A stretch of 64,000 nt of DNA from Zophobihabitans entericus (GTDB lineage Bacteria > Pseudomonadota > Gammaproteobacteria > Enterobacterales > Orbaceae), in assembly GCF_011745665.1 (NCBI RefSeq), contig NZ_CP050253.1:99418-163417 (forward strand). Reading direction: 5' to 3'. This document shows, piece after piece, positions 1,582-23,560 of the stretch; positions within the stretch are counted from its first letter, which is position 1, and every line of letters begins with the position of its first letter. Position numbers and translations under genes: made by a program. Below the pieces are notes generated by a model. It worked only from the letters and a program-made list of their open reading frames with translations. It had not been told where the DNA came from and ran no database searches.

Positions 1582-3534
1582 GTGGATATCTGGTCTAAAT
1601 TACCTGGTCAGGAAAGTGCGAGGCAACGTAGCAAAATCCGTGACCATTCAGCGGAAGCCAATCTGTTTTTACGCCGTGCTGTGGTTGCCTTTGTAGGTAT
1701 TCTGGTGCTGGTGGTTATTCTATTGGCTACGCTGGGACATCTTCAGATCAGTCGCTTTGGCTATTATAGTACCCGCTCCAACGAAAATCGTATCAACGTG
1801 ATTCCTATTCCGCCAAACCGGGGAATCATCTATGACAGAAATCATATCCCACTGGCGATTAATAACACGATTTATAAATTAGAGATCATTCCGGATAAAA
1901 TTAAAAACCTGAATGAACAGCTGGAAGAACTCAAAACTATCGTTGATCTGACAGACGAAGAGATCGATATCTTCCAGAAAGAGCGTCGTAACTATCGTTC
2001 TTATAGCCCGGTCCCACTGAAAGCAAAATTGACAGAGCAGCAAATCGCTCAATTTGTAGTTAACCAGCACCGTTTCCCGTTTGTCAGTATTTCTGGTGAG
2101 CAGCATCGTTATTATCCTTATGGTGCAACACTGACCCATATTCTGGGTTATGTCTCTAAGATTAACGATCAGGATAAAGCACGACTTATTGCAGATCAGC
2201 GTTTAAACGAATATGTCGGTACCAGTAATATTGGTAAATTAGGTATCGAACGCTTTTATGAAAGTACTCTGCATGGTATGCCGGGTTATGAAGAAGTTGA
2301 AGTCGATAGCCGTGGTCGCATTGTGCGTCAGCTCGATCAGTATCCGCCACAAGTCGGGCAGGATATTTATCTCTCTATCGATTTGAAATTACAGCAGTAT
2401 ATTGAGAAGCTACTCAACGGACGCCGTGCTGCGGTTGTTGCTCTTGATCCTAATAATGGTGAAGTGTTAGCACTGGTATCTAGTCCTAGTTACGATCCTA
2501 ACTTATTTGTCGGAGGTATCTCCGGTACAGATTATAATGCTTTGTTAACTAATCCAAACAAACCTTTATTTAACCGTGCAATGCAAGGTACTTATCCTCC
2601 TGCTTCAACCGTAAAACCCTTTATTGCCGCAGCTGCATTGACCGAAGGCGTGATTACTCGCAATACGGTGATTCATGACGTTGGCTGGTGGCAACTCCCT
2701 AATACAGATAAACGTTATCGTGACTGGAAACGCTGGGGACATGGACGAGTCGATGTCATTCGTTCTATCGAATCATCTGTTGATACATTCTACTATCAGA
2801 TTGCTTATGACATGGGTATTGATCGTCTCTCTAAATGGATGACTGAATTTGGTTTTGGTGACAGAACAGGAATCGATATATCCCAAAGTGAAGAAAGCCG
2901 CGCTATCATGCCAAACCGTGAGTGGAAGTTCCAGCGCTATGAGCAATCATGGCTACAGGGTGATACGATTCCGGTTGGTATCGGACAAGGTTACTGGACT
3001 GCCACACCACTACAAATGGCAAATGCCTTAACTATACTCATTAACAATGGTAAATCCTATACACCACACATCTTACTCAATACCAAAAGCTCGGTAATTG
3101 GTCCTGAAGTTCCGGAGATTTCAGTCCCTATGGAGAGTACTCTACTCAATACAGTTGATGCTAAATCATGGCAAGCGGCTAAAGAGGGAATGTATAAAGT
3201 ACTCTATGGATCACTGGGCACGGCCAGACACGTATTTGCCAAAACACCTTATCAGGCAGCGGGTAAATCCGGCACTGCACAAGTTTATGGCCTAAAAGCA
3301 GATGAAGTTTATGATGCCAATAATATCCCTGAACATTTGCGCGATCATGCGTTATTTATTGCCTATGCGCCGTATGACAAACCTAAGATTGCAATAGCTA
3401 TCGTGCTGGAAAATGGTGGTAGTGGTAGTACTAATGGTGGTGCTGTGGCGCGTCGTATTTTAGATTACTATCTACTTGGTGATGAAAGTGTTACAACAGA
3501 TGCATCAATATTAAAAATGAGGCTTGGTGACTAA
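1582..3534 (+). CDS. mrdA: Penicillin-binding protein 2 (elongasome transpeptidase)
   Basis: PBP2 crosslinks lateral-wall peptidoglycan with RodA in rod-shaped cells. It is a bitopic inner-membrane protein of 650 residues (E. coli 633). The single membrane segment lies at about residues 34-52, followed by the dimerisation domain and the transpeptidase domain. The catalytic motifs are visible: STVK at 342-345, SVD at 399-401 and KSGT at 562-565. The start is GTG at 1582; a TGA lies three codons upstream in frame, so no earlier start is possible. The GAAGGAG element ends only one base before the GTG, an unusually short spacing. The stop overlaps the mrdB start by one base (TAATG). Confidence 0.96.
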
Positions 3535-4643
3535 TGATTGATAAAAGTAAAACACCAATCTGGATGCGAGCTCATATCGATCCAATATTTTTATTATTAA
3601 CTTTGATCTTACTCGCTTACAGCGCGTTTATTATGTGGAGTGCCAGCGGTCAAAGTATTCCAATGATGGAAAATAAATCTATTCAGATCGTACTGGGGTT
3701 AGCGGTTATGTTGGCTGCTTCTCAGTTTTCTCCGCGTTTTTATGAAAAATGGTCACCCTATCTGTATGTTATCTGTATTATCTTACTCGTCTTGGTTGAT
3801 GTGTTTGGTCACACTAGTAAAGGTGCTCAGCGTTGGTTAAACTTAGGTTTTATACGCTTTCAACCATCAGAAATTGCCAAAATAGCGGTACCACTAATGG
3901 TAGCCCGGTTTATCAACCGTGAAGGATGCCCGCCGTCGCTCAAAAACACATTAATTACACTGGGAATTATCGCTGTTCCAACCTTACTAGTTGCGATGCA
4001 GCCCGATCTTGGAACATCTATTTTAGTTGCGGCTTCCGGGATTTTTATTATCTTTTTGGCTGGTATTGGCTGGCGTTTTATTACCTTCTGCTGTATTGCA
4101 ATTGCCACGTTTATCCCGATCATGTGGTACTTTTTAATGCATGATTACCAGCGTGAACGTGTTCTGACGCTGTTTAATCCGGAACGAGATCCGCTTGGTA
4201 AAGGCTATCATATTATCCAATCCAAAACGGCTATTGGTTCTGGTGGTATGTGGGGCAAAGGCTGGCTGGAAGGTACACAATCACAATTAGAGTTTTTACC
4301 AGAGCGCCACACAGATTTTATCTTTTCCGTTATTGCCGAAGAGTTTGGCTTTATTGGCGCGCTACTATTACTTGGGCTCTATTTATGCTTAATCTCTCGT
4401 GGGCTGATGATCGCTGCTCAGGCGCAAACTACCTTTGGCAGAATTTTAGCCGGCGGTTTGACACTCATATTTTTTATTTACGTATTTATTAATATTGGTA
4501 TGGTCAGTGGCATATTGCCGGTGGTTGGTGTACCATTACCTTTAATTAGTTATGGTGGCTCCTCACTGGTCGTATTGATGGCAAGCTTTGGCATTATCAT
4601 GTCAATCCACACTCACCGTCGTTTATTATCAAAGAATATTTAA
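3534..4643 (+). CDS. mrdB: RodA peptidoglycan glycosyltransferase
   Basis: SEDS-family polytopic inner-membrane protein that polymerises lipid II during cell elongation, the partner of PBP2. Its 369 residues match E. coli RodA (370). About ten hydrophobic segments are seen, with family-typical stretches [38 protein letters not shown] and [10 protein letters not shown]. Translation is coupled to mrdA through the shared base of TAATG. rlpA, which follows mrdB in E. coli, is absent and dacA comes next. Confidence 0.96.
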
Positions 4644-15557: not shown

Positions 15558-16058
15558 GTGTTAAATATTGTGCTGTTTGAGCCAGAAATCCCCCCTAATA
15601 CTGGCAATATCATTCGTCTGTGTGCCAATACAGGCTTTGCGCTACATATCATCGAACCGATGGGATTTGATCTGGATGATAAACGTTTACGCCGAGCAGG
15701 CCTTGATTACCATGAGTTTTCGAATGTAAAACGTTACCGTAATTTTGAACAGTTTTTAACACAAAATGTGTTGAGCCTGACACCACCTGCATCAGATAAA
15801 CCAGCTATATACGCGTTAACCACTAAAGGTAAATTACCACACAGTTCTGTTACTTATAAAGCCAATGATTATCTGTTATTTGGCCCTGAAACACGCGGTT
15901 TGCCACCCGTTATTTTAGATAATCTGCCACAGGAACAAAAAATTCGTATTCCGATGCTGGCTGACAGCCGTAGTATGAATCTGTCTAACGCTGTATCTGT
16001 AGTAGTTTATGAATCATGGCGTCAGTTAGGTTATCAAAACGCACTGCTCCCAAAATAA
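15558..16058 (+). CDS. trmL: tRNA (cytidine/uridine-34 2'-O)-methyltransferase TrmL
   Basis: SPOUT-class methyltransferase modifying the wobble base of tRNA-Leu isoacceptors; 166 residues. The N-terminal signature is [21 protein letters not shown] and the knot region includes [10 protein letters not shown] and [18 protein letters not shown]. The start is GTG at 15558, with AAGG ten bases before. In E. coli trmL lies beside cysE; here it is joined to cpxA, while gpsA-cysE are more than 20 kb away. Confidence 0.95.
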
Positions 16059-16115
16059 AATACACATAATAGTTATATTGATTAATTTAACTGAGGTTTA
16101 TATAGCGTTAGTTCT

Positions 16116-17309
16116 TTACCAACGACCCGACGCTCCACCTCCGCCGCTGCGACCGCCACCGCCACTTCGGCTACTGCTACTGCGGGAACTTCCTCCACCT
16201 CCAGATCTTGAACTACCACCTGAGCGGGAAGAACCAGAACCTGTGGTTGGTTTAATAAACCCTTTATAGATACCAATAATAATAAAAAGTGTAATAACTG
16301 TCGTTATCGATACAGCAGCACCCAATGAGCCCGTTGAGAAATAAGAAAAAAGATAAACAATAGAACCAAAAATAATCCCGGGGAAAAGAGCCTTCTTAAG
16401 TTTTTCTGATTTAATCCACCTATCTAAAATCATAAGGACTCCGGCAAAAAAGCCTAGAATATAGAAGACAGAGACAACAAAACAGGTAAATATCATGACA
16501 ACACTAAACCAGGCAGGGAATATCTGTAAAAACAGTAACTGTACCCAACGAGGCAAATCATTACGCAAAAAATCTTCACCAAAGGTCAGCCCATTCCATG
16601 TGGTGAGATCAAACCCACCAAAATAAGCAGTTAAGGCGATAATTCCTCCCCAAAATAGCCCCGCTCTCAAAGGAAAACGTTTTAATGTCTTCACAATAAT
16701 ACTTAGCCATAACAGAAGACTACCACCAATAACCAACCCTGCAACAATATCAAGAAGTCCAATGGATTCAGTTTGTTTAGTTACAATCAAAGACATCTGA
16801 TCAATGGGGGGTAACTCTTCCTGTTTGACTTTAGCAATAAGTGCATCAACAGCCAACTCAATACCTTTAGCGTACTGCTCAGCTCTAAAATAGGGAATCA
16901 GATAATTTTGGATAACCTGACTGGTGAAAAGGTCAGTAATTTGCCCTTCCAGTCCATAGCCAACTTCAATCCGCATAGTGCGGTCATTCAATGCAACAAT
17001 CAGTAGAACACCGTCATCAATCCCCTTGCGCCCCAGTTGCCACTGTGCAAAAATCTGACTGGCAAATTGTTCAATACTTTCGCGACCTGTGGTTGGAACA
17101 ATCAGCACTGCGATTTGTGCTCCTGTTTCATGTTCCAGATCCATAATTTTGTCATTAATCAGGTTATATTCACCCGGTGATAATAGCGATATAGTGTCAG
17201 TGACACCCTCATCCATTACCGGATAATTTGATGGATTAGCCTGCACTGACAGACTTAAGCACCAACTCATTATCATAATGAAAAAACGCTTTCTGATTAA
17301 TTGATTCAT
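16116..17309 (-). CDS. TPM-domain membrane protein (YgcG family)
   Basis: A 397-residue exported membrane protein of unknown cellular role. A signal peptide is seen at residues 1-24 (cleavage after SVQA), then a TPM domain at about 30-165, typified by YVLL-like GVLLIVALNDRTMRIEVGYGLEG. Several hydrophobic segments follow between about 180 and 350. The last ~45 residues are almost only Gly, Ser and Arg and end GASGRW, a tail typical of YgcG-like proteins. It is convergent with trmL. Antisense open frames over the tail are artefacts of its biased codons. Confidence 0.85.
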   Translation of the reverse strand: MNQLIRKRFFIMIMSWCLSLSVQANPSNYPVMDEGVTDTISLLSPGEYNLINDKIMDLEHETGAQIAVLIVPTTGRESIEQFASQIFAQWQLGRKGIDDGVLLIVALNDRTMRIEVGYGLEGQITDLFTSQVIQNYLIPYFRAEQYAKGIELAVDALIAKVKQEELPPIDQMSLIVTKQTESIGLLDIVAGLVIGGSLLLWLSIIVKTLKRFPLRAGLFWGGIIALTAYFGGFDLTTWNGLTFGEDFLRNDLPRWVQLLFLQIFPAWFSVVMIFTCFVVSVFYILGFFAGVLMILDRWIKSEKLKKALFPGIIFGSIVYLFSYFSTGSLGAAVSITTVITLFIIIGIYKGFIKPTTGSGSSRSGGSSRSGGGGSSRSSSSRSGGGGRSGGGGASGRW

Positions 17310-17546
17310 CCGCTCTCAGTCCTGACCACAATATTCTTACCTTATAGTTATTGTCAGTATTTTATAATGAATTGAGCATTTATCCATGCTGATAAGGAAA
17401 ATTAAAAGGAAATATGTTCAATTGGTCACTAAACTTGCTACAGATCTTGTAATTCATTAAAAATAAATCATTGTTAATCAAATAAATATAAATTATTAGT
17501 AATAATCGGTTTACGTTTTGGAAGAAATTTCTTTAGCTGATAATTA

Positions 17547-17580
17547 TAAGAGCAATTCTCTGACAGAAAATTGCTCTTAT
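17547..17580 (-). terminator. Hairpin after sohB, probable terminator
   Basis: Perfect 12-bp stem ATAAGAGCAATT/AATTGCTCTTAT (17547-17558 with 17569-17580), 29 bp past the sohB stop. The run following it on the minus strand is only AT-rich, not a clean T tract. The rest of the 299-bp gap to the TPM gene shows nothing recognisable. Confidence 0.5.
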
Positions 17581-17608
17581 ATGCAGAAGGAATTAATGAC
17601 TTGAGGAC

Positions 17609-18676
17609 TTAGAATTGTCTTCTAAATAGAACACGTTCAACACCTTTGGTCACCTGATTTGCTACTCTTTCAGAGAGTTTCTTATTACGACGATATTTGA
17701 CCGACAAAATCTTATAATTCTCTAAATGAGATAAGATGTAATCGTCACTGGTGCCAATCTCATCAACCAGTCCTTTATCTTTGGCTTGCGTGGCAAACCA
17801 GTGCTCACCAGTTGCAACAGCATCAATATCTACATTTGGTCGATTCTCACGTACAAAGTCTTTAAACAGTAGATGAGTTTCGTTCAGCTCTTCCTGAAAC
17901 TTTTTACGCCCTTCATCAGTATTTTCACCAAATAGCGTCAAAGTACGTTTATATTCGCCAGCTGTTTGCAGCTCTACATCAATATCATTTTTCTTAAGCA
18001 AACGATGGAAGTTAGGAATCTGCGCAACTACACCAATAGAGCCAATGATTGCAAACGGTGCAGCAATGATTTTACTGGCAGTACACGCCATCATATAACC
18101 ACCACTTGCTGCGACTTTATCAACCAGCGCAATCAGCTCCACATTATGCTGTTTAAAGCGCATCAGCTGCGAAGCGGCCAGACCATAACCATGTACCACA
18201 CCACCCGGACTTTCCAGTTTTAGTGCTACTTTATCTTCCGGTTTTATCACAGAAAGAACAGCTGTCACTTCCTGACGTAAATCTTCAACCTCTTTCGCAT
18301 CCATACTGCCATTAAACGAGAGGACATAGAGTTTAGACTTTTCCTGAGTACTCTTTTTCGCTTCAGCTGAGTCTGTAGTTGACTCACTCACCTCTTCTTT
18401 AGACGCTTTTTTAGCCTCTAATTTTTCCTGTTTTTTCTCTAACTTACGTTGTTTCTTTTGCTGCTTTTCCCATACTTTTGCTTCAGCATCATTCATACTT
18501 GAATACTGCATCATCTCTTTTAGCTCAGTATAGTTTTCACTAATATCTTTCACTTCTAAGCTACCAGCTGGTGCTCTTTTACGCAGACTGACGATGAACA
18601 GTAATACACCAGCAATCGCAGCAACGATAGTAATGCTTTTAGCTAAAAATAATAGGTATTCAAATATCCAGCTCAT
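17609..18676 (-). CDS. sohB: SohB inner-membrane serine protease (S49 family)
   Basis: SppA/SohB-type peptidase with its catalytic domain in the periplasm; 355 residues (E. coli 349). One or two N-terminal membrane segments lie at about 5-30. A highly charged Lys/Glu-rich, probably coiled segment follows at about 65-115. The S49 domain has Ser191 in VAASGGYMMA and Lys243 in AGEYKRTLTLFGENT, the Ser-Lys dyad. Its function in vivo (quality control of membrane proteins) is known only in outline for the family. It is divergent from fhs. Confidence 0.95.
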   Translation of the reverse strand: MSWIFEYLLFLAKSITIVAAIAGVLLFIVSLRKRAPAGSLEVKDISENYTELKEMMQYSSMNDAEAKVWEKQQKKQRKLEKKQEKLEAKKASKEEVSESTTDSAEAKKSTQEKSKLYVLSFNGSMDAKEVEDLRQEVTAVLSVIKPEDKVALKLESPGGVVHGYGLAASQLMRFKQHNVELIALVDKVAASGGYMMACTASKIIAAPFAIIGSIGVVAQIPNFHRLLKKNDIDVELQTAGEYKRTLTLFGENTDEGRKKFQEELNETHLLFKDFVRENRPNVDIDAVATGEHWFATQAKDKGLVDEIGTSDDYILSHLENYKILSVKYRRNKKLSERVANQVTKGVERVLFRRQF

Positions 18677-18846
18677 AATAATCCTTATTTATCCAGTAAA
18701 TGCTCTGCTCGCTATCATAGCAGATTTTTACTATAGGTTTTAGTTATCGTTACACGCAAAGATTTACAGATTGTCGCTTTATTCAGCTCCCAGTTTTCTT
18801 TATACTATTTACTTATACCAACGATCTGAATAAGAGACCTTGCCTA

Positions 18847-20556
18847 ATGAACGATACCAAACCAACTTTACGTCCAATTACAGAAATCGCAAAGCAGTGT
18901 GGAATTGATGATAAGTTCGTCATGAGTTATGGCCAGTATGTTGCCAAAATTGATCCGGCTGTTACTAAACAAAATGCACCTAAAGGTAAAATGATTTTAG
19001 TTTCTGCTATCACTCCAACTCCTCTTGGTGAGGGAAAAACTGTCACCACTATCGGACTTAGTCAGGGTTTAAATTATATTGGTAAAAAAGCTATAGCATG
19101 TATTCGTCAGCCAAGCCTTGGACCTGTATTTGGTGTTAAAGGTGGTGCCGCAGGCGGTGGTAAGGCCGAAGTTCTGCCAATGGAAAAACTGAATTTACAT
19201 CTGACTGGTGATATTCACGCGATTACGGCAGCACATGATTTAGCTTCTGCGGCTTTAGACGCACGCCTGTTCCATGAAGAGCGTTTGGGTGAAGAGTTTA
19301 CTAAACAGACTAACCTGCCACTTCTCAATATCGATAAAAATCGTGTCGTCTGGAAACGTGTTATTGATCATAATGATCGAGCTTTGCGTAATATCACTGT
19401 TGGTGTTGGTGGTGGTAACAATGGCGTTGAACGTAATGACGGTTTTGAAATTTCTGCTGCGTCAGAGCTAATGGCTATTTTAGCCTTAGCTACGGACTTA
19501 AAAGATATGCGTCAGCGTATTGGTCGTATCATCCTTGCCTATGATAAATCGGGTAATCCTATTACGACAGAAGCGCTGGAAGTCGCTGGCGCTATGACAG
19601 TGCTACTGAAAGATGCAATCAATCCAAATCTGATGCAAACGGCAGAAAATACACCGGCACTTATTCATGCTGGACCATTTGCCAATATCGCGCACGGTAA
19701 CTCGTCTGTCATTGCTGATATCGTTGGTCTGCAACTGGCAGATTATGTAGTGACCGAAGCAGGCTTTGGTTCTGATATGGGAATGGAAAAATTCTTTAAT
19801 ATTAAATATCGTCAGGCCGGGATTGCGCCTTCTTGTATCGTGATTGTGGCAACTATTCGTAGCTTAAAATCTAATAGCGGTAAATTTAATATTAAACCGG
19901 GTCAGCCTTTACCAAAAGAAGTCACCGAATCAAATGTTGAGTTACTTTCTATTGGTTGTGCTAACTTAGGCTGGCATATCAATAATGCGAAGGGTTATGG
20001 TTTACCAGTGATTGTTGCGATCAATCGTTTCCCTTATGACAATCAGGAAGAGTTAGACTTTCTACAACAATATGCCTTAAAACAAGGAGCATTCGCTTGT
20101 GAAGTTAGTGAAGCCTTCGCTAAAGGTGGTGAAGGTACGGCTAAATTGTCACAACATATCGTTAAAGCCTGTGAACAACAACATACTGTGACGCTACCAT
20201 ATAGTGATGATATGCCGCTGTTTGATAAGATTCAGACTATGGCTAAAAAATATGGAGCGAATCAGGCTAAACTTGCCCCTAAAGCTTTACAAGATATTGA
20301 AGAGATTAAAAAACTTAATCTTGCTCATTTACCGCTGTGTATGGTTAAAACACCAATGTCAATTAGTGCCGATCCTAATCTGAAAAATGTACCAACTAAC
20401 TTTGATATTGATGTGACACATTTGCAGGTTTCTGCCGGTGCCGGATTCATTCGTGTCTATGCCGGTGATGTAATGACTATGCCAGGTCTTGGTACTCTAC
20501 CAGCTTATCGTAAGATCGATCTGGATGATGCTGGAAATATCGTTGGACTCAGTTAA
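18847..20556 (+). CDS. fhs: Formate-tetrahydrofolate ligase
   Basis: Makes 10-formyl-tetrahydrofolate from formate, THF and ATP, feeding purine and initiator-tRNA formylation. The 569 residues fit the family. The P-loop region [16 protein letters not shown] lies at about 57-72, and family-typical stretches include [19 protein letters not shown] and [14 protein letters not shown]. Many enteric bacteria lack fhs, so its presence suggests capture of formate made during anaerobic growth. The stop overlaps the start of a ferredoxin gene by one base (TAATG), implying coupled translation. Confidence 0.96.
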
Positions 20557-20969
20557 TGACAATAGTCTTAAAAGCGTATATTGATGAGGCAAACTGTATC
20601 GGCTGTGCAAAGTGCAGCCGAAGTTGCCCAACTGATGCAATTGTAGGCAGTAAACATACTCTGCATACAATTCTACCTCAGCTCTGTACCAGCTGTAGTA
20701 AATGTATCGATGTTTGTCCAACCAACTGTATTACACTGCATACCCCAGGCGAAGAGATGAACCCGGCTGAAGAGTTACGTCTGACTGAAAGAAAACAATC
20801 ACGTTTAGTGCAACAGTCCACCTTTCCTTCATCAACTGTTGCCACTATCTTTACTCCAATAGTTCACACGCCACAGCCTGTTATTTCACTTGAACAACGT
20901 AAACAGACGGTTGCTGATGCCATAGCACGAGCCAGAGCCAAGAAACTGGCTCAACAAAAGCCGGAATAG
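20556..20969 (+). CDS. Two-cluster ferredoxin related to the RnfB iron-sulfur domain
   Basis: A 137-residue soluble protein. Two CxxCxxCxxxC motifs (Cys14/17/20/24 and Cys44/47/50/54) should bind two [4Fe-4S] clusters. The segment [13 protein letters not shown]...TDAIVG...LHT resembles the RnfB ferredoxin domain, but the RnfB membrane segment and flavodoxin-like region are missing and no rnf genes are nearby. The Ala/Lys/Arg-rich end [16 protein letters not shown] recalls the tail of RnfC. It is translationally coupled to fhs. Its function is unknown; an electron carrier linked to formate or one-carbon metabolism is inference. Confidence 0.8.
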
Positions 20970-21104
20970 AACGTAACAAAGATATCCATTCATTATAAAT
21001 TAGACACAATACGCAAAATCTAAATTATCAGTAGATTTGGATGCATATTCTATTTATGCTGCTAATCAGGGAAAAGTAGCCCAATAAGTCAGATTACAGG
21101 CAAC

Positions 21105-21128
21105 AAAAAGCCCCGCATTAAGCGAGGC
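21105..21128 (-). terminator. Rho-independent terminator of hupA
   Basis: GCCTCGC/GCGGGGC stem on the minus strand (21128-21122 with 21116-21110, one G-T pair), followed by TTTTTG. Confidence 0.85.
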
Positions 21129-21172
21129 ATTAAAGAAAGTAAGAACTTCCTAACTGCGATTAACGTCAGTTA

Positions 21173-21445
21173 TTACTTAACAGTCTCTTTTAAACCTTTA
21201 CCAGCAACGAATGCAGGAACTTTAGTTGCTGCAATTTTGATTTCTTTACCAGTTTTTGGGTTACGGCCAGTACGTGCTTTACGGTTGTTTACTTTGAAAG
21301 TACCAAAACCAACTAATTGCACTGGTTCACCTTTTTTAAGTGAAGCAGAGATTGCAGCTAGAGTTGCTTCTAATGCAGTTTTTGCAGCTACTTTAGTGAT
21401 GTCAGCTTTGCTAGCAATAGCGTCTACAAGTTCTGTCTTATTCAT
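21173..21445 (-). CDS. hupA: DNA-binding protein HU-alpha
   Basis: Histone-like nucleoid protein of 90 residues. It begins [11 protein letters not shown], and the DNA-binding arm shows the family signature [18 protein letters not shown]. It is assigned to HU-alpha rather than HU-beta because it follows hemE-yjaG, as in E. coli. A 167-bp gap separates it from yjaG, so it probably has its own promoter. Confidence 0.95.
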
Positions 21446-21612
21446 GAATATGTCCTTACATTAAGTATTTAATTGTTTATAAAATAAAGCCTGCCCGATA
21501 AAAACCAAGCTCAGCCCTCCTGAAATCTTGATTGGTTATAAATGTAGTCTATATTTGTTTAAGATTAAAGCTAAATTTAATCAAAAACCTAAAATAAATC
21601 ACACTTTTTGGT

Positions 21613-22203
21613 TTAATTGCTCAAAAAAACACCAATATTACTGATATTTGCCTCTCTGAGATCCTCTTTCAAGCCTTTAATTAACTCAATATTACGTTCT
21701 TCTTCTTCTTTCAATAATCGGAAAATTTCCCATTGAATATCTAATTCATCGATAATTGCAGGTAATATTTTGAGTTCTTCATCGGTCATTTCACGCTCAG
21801 CCTGAGTCATTTCATAGCCTGCCACAGTATTTAATGAGATTTCACTCACCGCGATCGCATGTTCAGCACTTTCACCACTCAGATAAGCATGCATTAGTTC
21901 ACTGAGTGCCTGACAGGCGTCTATCGCCGGGTATACGCTATAAACATCAAAGTCACTCACTGCCGGAATAAGATCTTCAAATTTTTCCAACTGTGAATCA
22001 AAGTTTATTTTAGCCCCTTTGACGATTAAAGATTCCCAGACTAAGTCTAAGACTTTTCTGTATTGTGCAGGGTTAGCAAAATCTGTTTGCTGACAAAACA
22101 GTGCATAATTTGGATACATCCGCTCGCACAAACAGACCATAAATGTCCGGTGTTGCCACTCACTAAACTTTTCTAAACGAAGATGAATTGGATTTTTGAT
22201 CAT
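21613..22203 (-). CDS. yjaG: YjaG, DUF416 family protein
   Basis: Cytoplasmic DUF416 protein of 196 residues without an established function. Family features include [21 protein letters not shown] near the N-terminus and [20 protein letters not shown] in the middle. The start overlaps the hemE stop by four bases (ATGA), so the two are translationally coupled. The order hemE-yjaG-hupA is that of E. coli without nfi. Confidence 0.92.
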
Positions 22204-23282
22204 TGATGAAACCTCTTTGAACGACTATGTACAGAGGCAATTAATTGTTCGACATGCTCAACCGGAATATCCTGGTGAATACCATGACCTAAATTAAAGA
22301 CATGGCCATTACCCGCACCATATTCTGTCAGAACTTGTTCAACCTGCTGGTCAATAATATTTTTTGGGGCATATAGTACAGAAGGGTCCAGATTACCTTG
22401 TAGCGCAATAGGTTTGCCATTAGTGATTGTGCGAGCGTCACTTAGGTTCATTGTCCAGTCGATACCGATTGCATCACTACCTATTCCGGTAATTTTATCC
22501 AGCCAGATACCCCCACCTTTAGTAAATACTGTGACCGGCACATAGCCTTGCGTCCCTGATTCTGGTCTTATTCCTCTGTCTAAATTAGCAATGATCTCTT
22601 GCATATAGCGCAAAGAGAAATCCTGATAACTTTGATGACTGAGCATTCCACCCCAGGTATCAAAGATCATAACAGATTGAGCTCCAGCCTTTATTTGCGC
22701 ATTTAAATAAAGGGCAACGCTTTGTGCCAGCTTACTTAACAGTAAGTGTAAAGCTTCTGGTTCGGCATACATCATTTGCTTAATTTTAGTAAACGATTTA
22801 CTGCTGCCCCCTTCAATCATATAAGTTGCCAGCGTCCATGGACTACCGGAGAACCCAATCAGGGGAACTTTGCCATTTAACGCTTTGCGTGTAGTACGCA
22901 GAGCATCCATCACGTAGCGCAGCTCCTGCTCCGGATCGGGAACAGGTAAATTTTTAATCTGGTCCAGTTGAGTAATAGGGCGCTCAAATTTAGGTCCTTC
23001 ACCAGTTTCAAAATGTAAACCAAGTCCCATTGCATCGGGGATTGTTAAAATATCAGAAAAAATAATAGCCGCATCCAGATCAAATCGTTCAATTGGTTGC
23101 AAAGTCACTTCACAGGCTAGCTCCGGATTCTGGCAGAGATTCATAAAGCTACCGGCTTTAGCTCTTAATTCACGATATTCAGGTAAATAACGCCCTGCTT
23201 GCCTCATCATCCAGATAGGTGTGTAATCAACAGGCTGACAAAGTAATGCACGTAAATAGCGATCATTTTTTAATGCTGGCAT
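22200..23282 (-). CDS. hemE: Uroporphyrinogen decarboxylase
   Basis: Decarboxylates uroporphyrinogen III to coproporphyrinogen III in heme synthesis; 360 residues (E. coli 354). Signatures include [16 protein letters not shown], with the Arg residues of the substrate pocket, [14 protein letters not shown], with the catalytic-site Asp, and [13 protein letters not shown] at the C-terminus. AAGGAT precedes the ATG. It is the first gene of a hemE-yjaG unit. Confidence 0.97.
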
Positions 23283-23560
23283 ATCTATTTCTATCCTTAT
23301 AATTAACTTACCGCGTCATCATATCATTGAATCGTTGATAATAGATAATTGAAGTCAGTTTTTATTTATTCTGTTAGTCCTCTTTTTGTAATTATTCATT
23401 ATATTAGAAAAGTAATTCAGACTATTTAAAATTTATACCTTGCTGCGATTCGCTTTTTTCGATACAAAAATTAATAAAATCATAGTGATTGTTCATTGTT
23501 TAACACGTTATCTTTTATTATAGTAATGAGCAATTTCCTAATCAGATTCGAGTTGCTCCT

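Follow-up and report, generated by a model that had tools for sequence, protein, structure and literature searches.

A fused RsxB/RsxC-type ferredoxin encoded next to fhs in Zophobihabitans entericus, a probable remnant of an Rsx operon

A small ferredoxin encoded directly downstream of fhs in Zophobihabitans entericus was analyzed within its genomic context; the whole 64,000-nucleotide stretch of DNA analyzed is herein referred to as the window. This ferredoxin is probably a freed soluble carrier, the fused remnant of an Rsx (Rnf-type) operon that was once located downstream of fhs. Its position beside fhs is best read, from gene order and sequence comparison, as inherited from the fhs-rsx arrangement, and the coupling of the two genes would then be no evidence of a shared reaction. 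No description of an fhs-linked RsxB/RsxC fusion ferredoxin was found in the open-licence papers searched. The features of the locus are the following:

17609..18676, minus strand: sohB, divergent, upstream of fhs and outside the unit (NF008745, 482 bits)
18847..20556, plus strand: fhs, formate--tetrahydrofolate ligase, 569 aa (NF010031, PF01268)
20554..20558, plus strand: TAATG, overlap of the fhs stop and the ferredoxin start (read from the sequence; alike in 29 of 36 family genomes)
20556..20969, plus strand: putative fused RsxB/RsxC-derived ferredoxin, 137 aa, no membrane segment (TIGR01944; 36 of 36 family genomes)
20574..20741, plus strand: RsxB-derived 2[4Fe-4S] domain, residues 7-62 (TIGR01944; eight ligand cysteines and C58 in 36 of 36)
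20742..20876, plus strand: linker, residues 63-107 (median dN/dS 0.18)
20877..20948, plus strand: probable RsxC-derived tail repeat RKxxxxDAIARxxAKK, residues 108-131, predicted helix (tail profiles match RsxC tails)
21173..21445, minus strand: HU-like gene, convergent, downstream of the ferredoxin and outside the unit (curated-family scan)

The Fhs of the window, the single one in its genome, scores 918 bits with NF010031 (cut-off 800) and 775 bits with PF01268. The fhs stop codon TAA occupies positions 20554-20556 and the ferredoxin ATG positions 20556-20558. Base 20556 is thus common to both, as the first-pass annotation of this DNA had claimed. This one-base overlap is the sequence sign that fhs and the ferredoxin gene may form a co-transcribed, translationally coupled operon. 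Promoter-like sites at the locus are no commoner than in shuffles, and an Rfam scan of window positions 16000-23500 gave no match. Upstream of fhs, sohB was also found in the other family loci whose fetched stretch extends that far; the HU-like gene lies downstream in some relatives only. Between the HU-like gene and hemE, a 196-aa protein (21613-22203, minus strand) matched nothing in NCBIfam at the threshold applied; by its position, we take it to be YjaG-like. In another genome, G008, a transposase-like pair of ORFs (L132:3094-4535, minus strand), by eye an interrupted IS element, lies directly downstream of the ferredoxin.

The ferredoxin passes the RnfB model TIGR01944 with 86.8 bits (cut-off 68.7), the only family passed among the best 25 of 66. 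Residues 7-73 align to positions 108-174 of the 190 positions of the model. Because the match begins at position 108, the RnfB N-terminal membrane helix and first Fe-S domain (CxxCGYPGC) are missing, and the protein begins 6 residues ahead of the dicluster domain. The two cluster motifs, C14-C17-C20-C24 and C44-C47-C50-C54, are intact four-cysteine motifs, which, together with the lack of a membrane part, agrees with the pattern of soluble 2[4Fe-4S] proteins. The earlier description of a 137-residue protein with two [4Fe-4S] motifs like those of the RnfB soluble domain, and with no membrane parts, was therefore accurate. In an AlphaFold model of the ferredoxin (9 rows), a helix was predicted at residues 112-133, with a block pLDDT of 94-97; over the Fe-S domain, the quality of the model is poor, with a mean pLDDT of 54.7.

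Conservation was analyzed in 60 relatives of the same order, including 36 genomes of the window's family (its own genome among them) and 24 others. The ferredoxin was found almost at full length in all 36 family genomes, the other 35 proteins being 53-61% identical to that of the window. Fhs was found in the same 36 genomes and is encoded directly upstream of the ferredoxin in every one. Thus, all family genomes that keep fhs also keep its neighbor, the point on which the first-pass annotation had staked a functional link between the two. The TAATG overlap is kept in 29 of the 36 genomes; in the remaining 7, the first ATG lies 14-51 bases further downstream. Outside the family, matches are essentially confined to the dicluster domain, 55-70 residues inside longer RsxB-type frames. 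In a wider search, 295 genomes of the order were examined, and a match was found in 281. Among the matches listed, from which all details per genome were taken, a long-tailed frame of RsxB type from G097 aligns up to ferredoxin residue 127 at 38%, and a match in G198 aligns up to residue 114, across two stops.

Strong purifying selection acts on the ferredoxin throughout the 36 family genomes. Its frame is open in every one, and the eight ligand cysteines plus a ninth, C58, were found in all of them. The median pairwise dN/dS across these genomes is 0.021 for the domain, 0.18 for the linker, 0.14 for the tail, and 0.028 for fhs; pairs with dS below 0.1, above 1.5, or undefined were left out, so that for the domain 410 pairs were omitted and 216 used. 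In the tail, residues R115, K116, D121, I123, A124, R125, and A128 are invariant in the family, giving the motif RKxxxxDxIARxxA.

The membrane part of the Rsx complex was not found in the family. No matches to RnfD/NqrB (PF03116) or to RnfA/RnfE/NqrD/NqrE (PF02508) were found in the whole genome of the window, in line with the earlier remark that the ferredoxin occurs there without other Rnf genes, or in any of the 36 family genomes. In contrast, genes of PF03116 or PF02508 were found in 23 of the 24 non-family genomes of the same sample. SoxR is the known client of Rsx in Escherichia coli. A SoxR over the TIGR01950 cut-off was found in none of the 36 family genomes and in 7 of the 24 others, which rules out SoxR reduction as the present role of the ferredoxin.

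For the tail, a likeness to RnfC had been noticed from the sequence alone, and it was borne out by the comparison with RsxC. The RsxC tails of the fhs-rsx loci described below consist of repeats, e.g., DERKAAVAEAIARVKARKAQQ. An HMM of the family tails scored 14.5-35.8 bits on 10 RsxC tails (one record, L032 and L046, being included twice), values reached by none of the 200 residue-shuffled versions made of each tail, and at most 0.5 bits on the C-terminal tails of RsxB itself. Specificity was examined by searching 26 whole genomes, 24 of them outside the family, in six frames with a 42-position profile built from 12 tails. A match at E<=1 was found in 18 of these 24 genomes; for 15 of those 18, the best match fell within RsxC. 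The best E value was <=0.1 in 13 genomes, all with RsxC; the three best matches outside RsxC were weak (0.18, 0.74, and 0.87). The RsxC position of the match, between rsxB and rsxD, was confirmed by script in 12 of the 15 genomes and by hand in G039, G043, and G048. Chance likeness of a charged tail was ruled out by the shuffles and by these RsxC-specific matches in whole genomes. As judged from these sequence comparisons, the similarity of the ferredoxin tail to the C-terminal repeats of RsxC holds as specific. For the linker, 3 to 285 of 500 shuffles scored equally well against the RsxC helix.

An NCBIfam scan of the 75-aa ferredoxin tail alone hit 0 families. In some family ferredoxins, the tail repeat is re-expanded, with four copies in L012 (1468-2217) and two each in L017 and L024, and this multiplied tail may be likened to the repeats in RsxC itself. 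A tblastn search of plasmids with the four-repeat tail of L012 gave no match, for which the BLAST low-complexity filter may be the cause.

The arrangement from which the fusion would have arisen was found outside the family. In G039, a genome of another family, rsxA, rsxB, and rsxC come after fhs in the same orientation, as far as the contig reaches. When named genomes were scanned with the Fhs of G039, the loci retrieved were L046 and seven of Enterobacterales: two of Budvicia, one each of Pragia, Leminorella, and Limnobaculum, and two labelled Enterobacteriaceae. In all seven full named loci, the order fhs-rsxA-rsxB-rsxC-rsxD-rsxG-rsxE-nth was found on one strand. Among the 246 genomes of the Enterobacteriaceae-like family f19, Fhs (E<=1e-50) was found in 25 genomes as 26 copies; one fragment at a contig end (G534) was left out of the count. 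For copies 67-73% identical to the Fhs of the window, rsxA lies downstream on the same strand in 17 of the 17 testable cases. For the 8 copies with 46-48% identity, no rsx gene was found within the fetched stretch. The Enterobacteriaceae-like genomes thus carry two distant Fhs types (L142-L148 and L167 versus L149-L165), only one of which is rsxA-linked. Seven of the eight named rsx-linked loci have an Fhs identical to that of 7 of the 17 f19 loci and are probably from the same species, and the eighth, L046, is G039 itself (an uncultured lineage); the number of distinct rsx-linked Fhs loci is therefore 18, not 25. In L150, a 150-aa membrane-type ORF without an NCBIfam match (3367-3819, plus strand), presumably ydgK, lies between fhs and rsxA, and several other fhs-rsx loci have a similar gap between these genes.

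In an Fhs tree of 56 rows, all rsx-linked and all ferredoxin-linked Fhs proteins form one clade (100/100), within which the ferredoxin-linked proteins (12 rows given) form a single clade (100/100). Support for the nesting of this latter clade among the rsx-linked rows is weak (81/85 and 83/90).

A fusion by deletion upon the loss of Rsx is proposed because an RsxB front and an RsxC tail are found in the place where relatives carry fhs-rsx. In the ancestor of the family, rsxA and rsxDGE would have been lost by deletion, along with most of rsxC and the portions of rsxB for the membrane part and the first Fe-S domain. What was left of RsxB, its soluble 2[4Fe-4S] domain, would thereby have been fused to the repeat helix at the C-terminus of RsxC, a composition to which comparison with the intact loci points directly. 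The new gene would have come to begin at the final base of the fhs stop.

Solo RsxB domains were also found in two genomes of only ~0.35 Mb, G059 and G081, belonging to another family. These domains of 69-71 aa score over the TIGR01944 cut-off and have no RsxC tail:

L126:2597-2806, minus strand: solo RsxB domain between tyrS and clpX (names by eye)
L127:2443-2658, minus strand: solo RsxB domain between tyrS and clpX (names by eye)

Profile and homology searches, made of G059 only, found no RnfD, no RnfA/E, and no Fhs in that genome. Retained in G059 are flavodoxin and the radical-SAM enzymes LipA, MiaB, RlmN, and HemW. The G059/G081 domain would represent an independent parallel, a freeing of the RsxB domain separate from the fusion in the window's family. 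That a solo domain survives in a tiny genome, and apart from fhs, speaks for an autonomous role of the domain and against survival that depends on fhs.

These data bear on other origins of the ferredoxin. It could be a stand-alone RnfB of the beta- or gammaproteobacterial type, horizontally acquired beside fhs, whose Lys/Arg/Ala tail is RnfB's own extension. Matches to RnfB-type sites of Acinetobacter, Neisseria, and Legionella indeed extend past the domain, to query residues 83-93, but no record from the search that gave these matches covers 80% of the query, and the tail profile matches RsxC, not RsxB extensions. No stand-alone RnfB with an RKxxxxDAIARxxAKK tail was seen outside the family among the matches listed in the 295-genome search. 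Gene order, like the Fhs tree, speaks for a resident fhs-rsx arrangement. Such an origin is improbable, and separate acquisition was rejected on the RsxC-specific tail profile together with the Fhs tree. A fragment of two subunits of an otherwise vanished complex might also be a functionless relic, decaying on its way to loss. Decay was ruled out by the open frames in all 36 genomes, the invariant ligand cysteines, and a domain dN/dS as low as that of fhs; with the invariant tail residues added, the relic reading is scarcely credible.

A joint function with Fhs deserves separate consideration, because the adjacency of the two genes is kept throughout the family. The ferredoxin would then serve a folate or formate step, such as methylene-THF reduction or formate oxidation, and coupling would match the production of the two proteins. 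A tie between one-carbon metabolism and Rsx may even predate the fusion, given the rsx-linkage of this Fhs type in the 17 testable f19 copies and in G039. However, the Fhs reaction itself uses no electrons, as established biochemistry has it, and other Fhs copies of the order have no ferredoxin neighbor (L033-L036 and the 8 more distant f19 copies). Moreover, the adjacency is explained by descent, and G059 retains its solo domain without an Fhs, so that conservation of the pair does not demonstrate a joint reaction. This explanation is thus unlikely. Of the two proposals in the first-pass annotation, that of a recycled fragment stood, in the form of an RsxB domain and RsxC tail fused at the fhs-rsx site; the conservation that would suggest a joint fhs-ferredoxin function has a simpler explanation in shared descent. 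One-carbon metabolism and Rsx may still be more loosely linked, since the rsx-linkage of this Fhs type in every testable copy leaves room for it.

As a freed remnant of Rsx, the ferredoxin is most likely a soluble low-potential electron carrier, as suggested by its fold family. It is not the sole possible carrier, since a long-chain flavodoxin over the cut-off was found in all 36 family genomes and the genome of the window encodes a second small 4Fe-4S ferredoxin-like protein of 85 aa (L168:608-865, plus strand), YfhL-like by eye. A NifJ-type pyruvate:flavodoxin oxidoreductase over the cut-off was found in 36 of 36 family genomes and in 5 of the 24 others; NifJ normally uses flavodoxin. Candidate donors, at the level of a guess, are this oxidoreductase or the flavodoxin/NADPH pool. 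Candidate acceptors, equally a guess, are Fe-S or radical-SAM enzymes; SoxR is not proposed because it is absent. The tail helix may serve as a docking element taken over from RsxC. In Rnf, according to a review, the C-terminal domain of RnfB takes electrons from cytoplasmic ferredoxins (PMC12174285).

What Rsx does in enteric bacteria is not settled, and the same review questions why SoxR should be reduced through Rsx if NADH could serve (PMC12174285). The window's family offers an evolutionary dissection of the complex: lacking SoxR and the membrane complex, it retains exactly the soluble RsxB domain and the RsxC tail. This retention, together with that of the domain alone in the two tiny genomes, points to a role independent of the pump. 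Tentatively, and with more doubt than confidence, we suggest that the RsxB dicluster domain is a self-sufficient donor freed at least twice, that support of Fe-S and radical-SAM enzymes is the core function of Rsx, and that the RsxC tail serves docking. If true, such support, not SoxR reduction or ion pumping, would be the conserved core function of Rsx. More generally, the locus is an example of a membrane complex reduced to a fused soluble remnant. Its retention by the whole family suggests that part of the Rsx machine is useful by itself, and the small soluble protein provides a means to look for the true Rsx client.

Among known systems, the ferredoxin shares the dicluster domain and the cysteine spacing with RsxB/RnfB (TIGR01944), which belongs to the Rsx/Rnf ferredoxin:NAD+ oxidoreductase, and differs by the absent membrane helix and first Fe-S domain and by the lack of accompanying RnfA/E or RnfD genes. 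With bacterial 2[4Fe-4S] ferredoxins (1blu and the YfhL family), it has two CxxCxxCxxxCP motifs in common, the match to 1blu being 2e-6; unlike them, it is nearer to RnfB and polyferredoxins and bears an RsxC-type tail. The repeat motif RKxxVAxAIARxKARK is common to RsxC and the ferredoxin, and the barrel and Fe-S domain of RsxC/RnfC are absent from the latter. In Azotobacter vinelandii, RnfC has a C-terminal helix of >50 residues that touches RnfB and RnfH and whose function, according to the review, is not understood (PMC12174285). The ferredoxin repeat may correspond to this helix. The closest arrangement is fhs-rsxABCDGE-nth of Budviciaceae and relatives, with an Fhs of the same clade and in the same place as in the window; unlike in the window's family, the whole Rsx complex is retained there.
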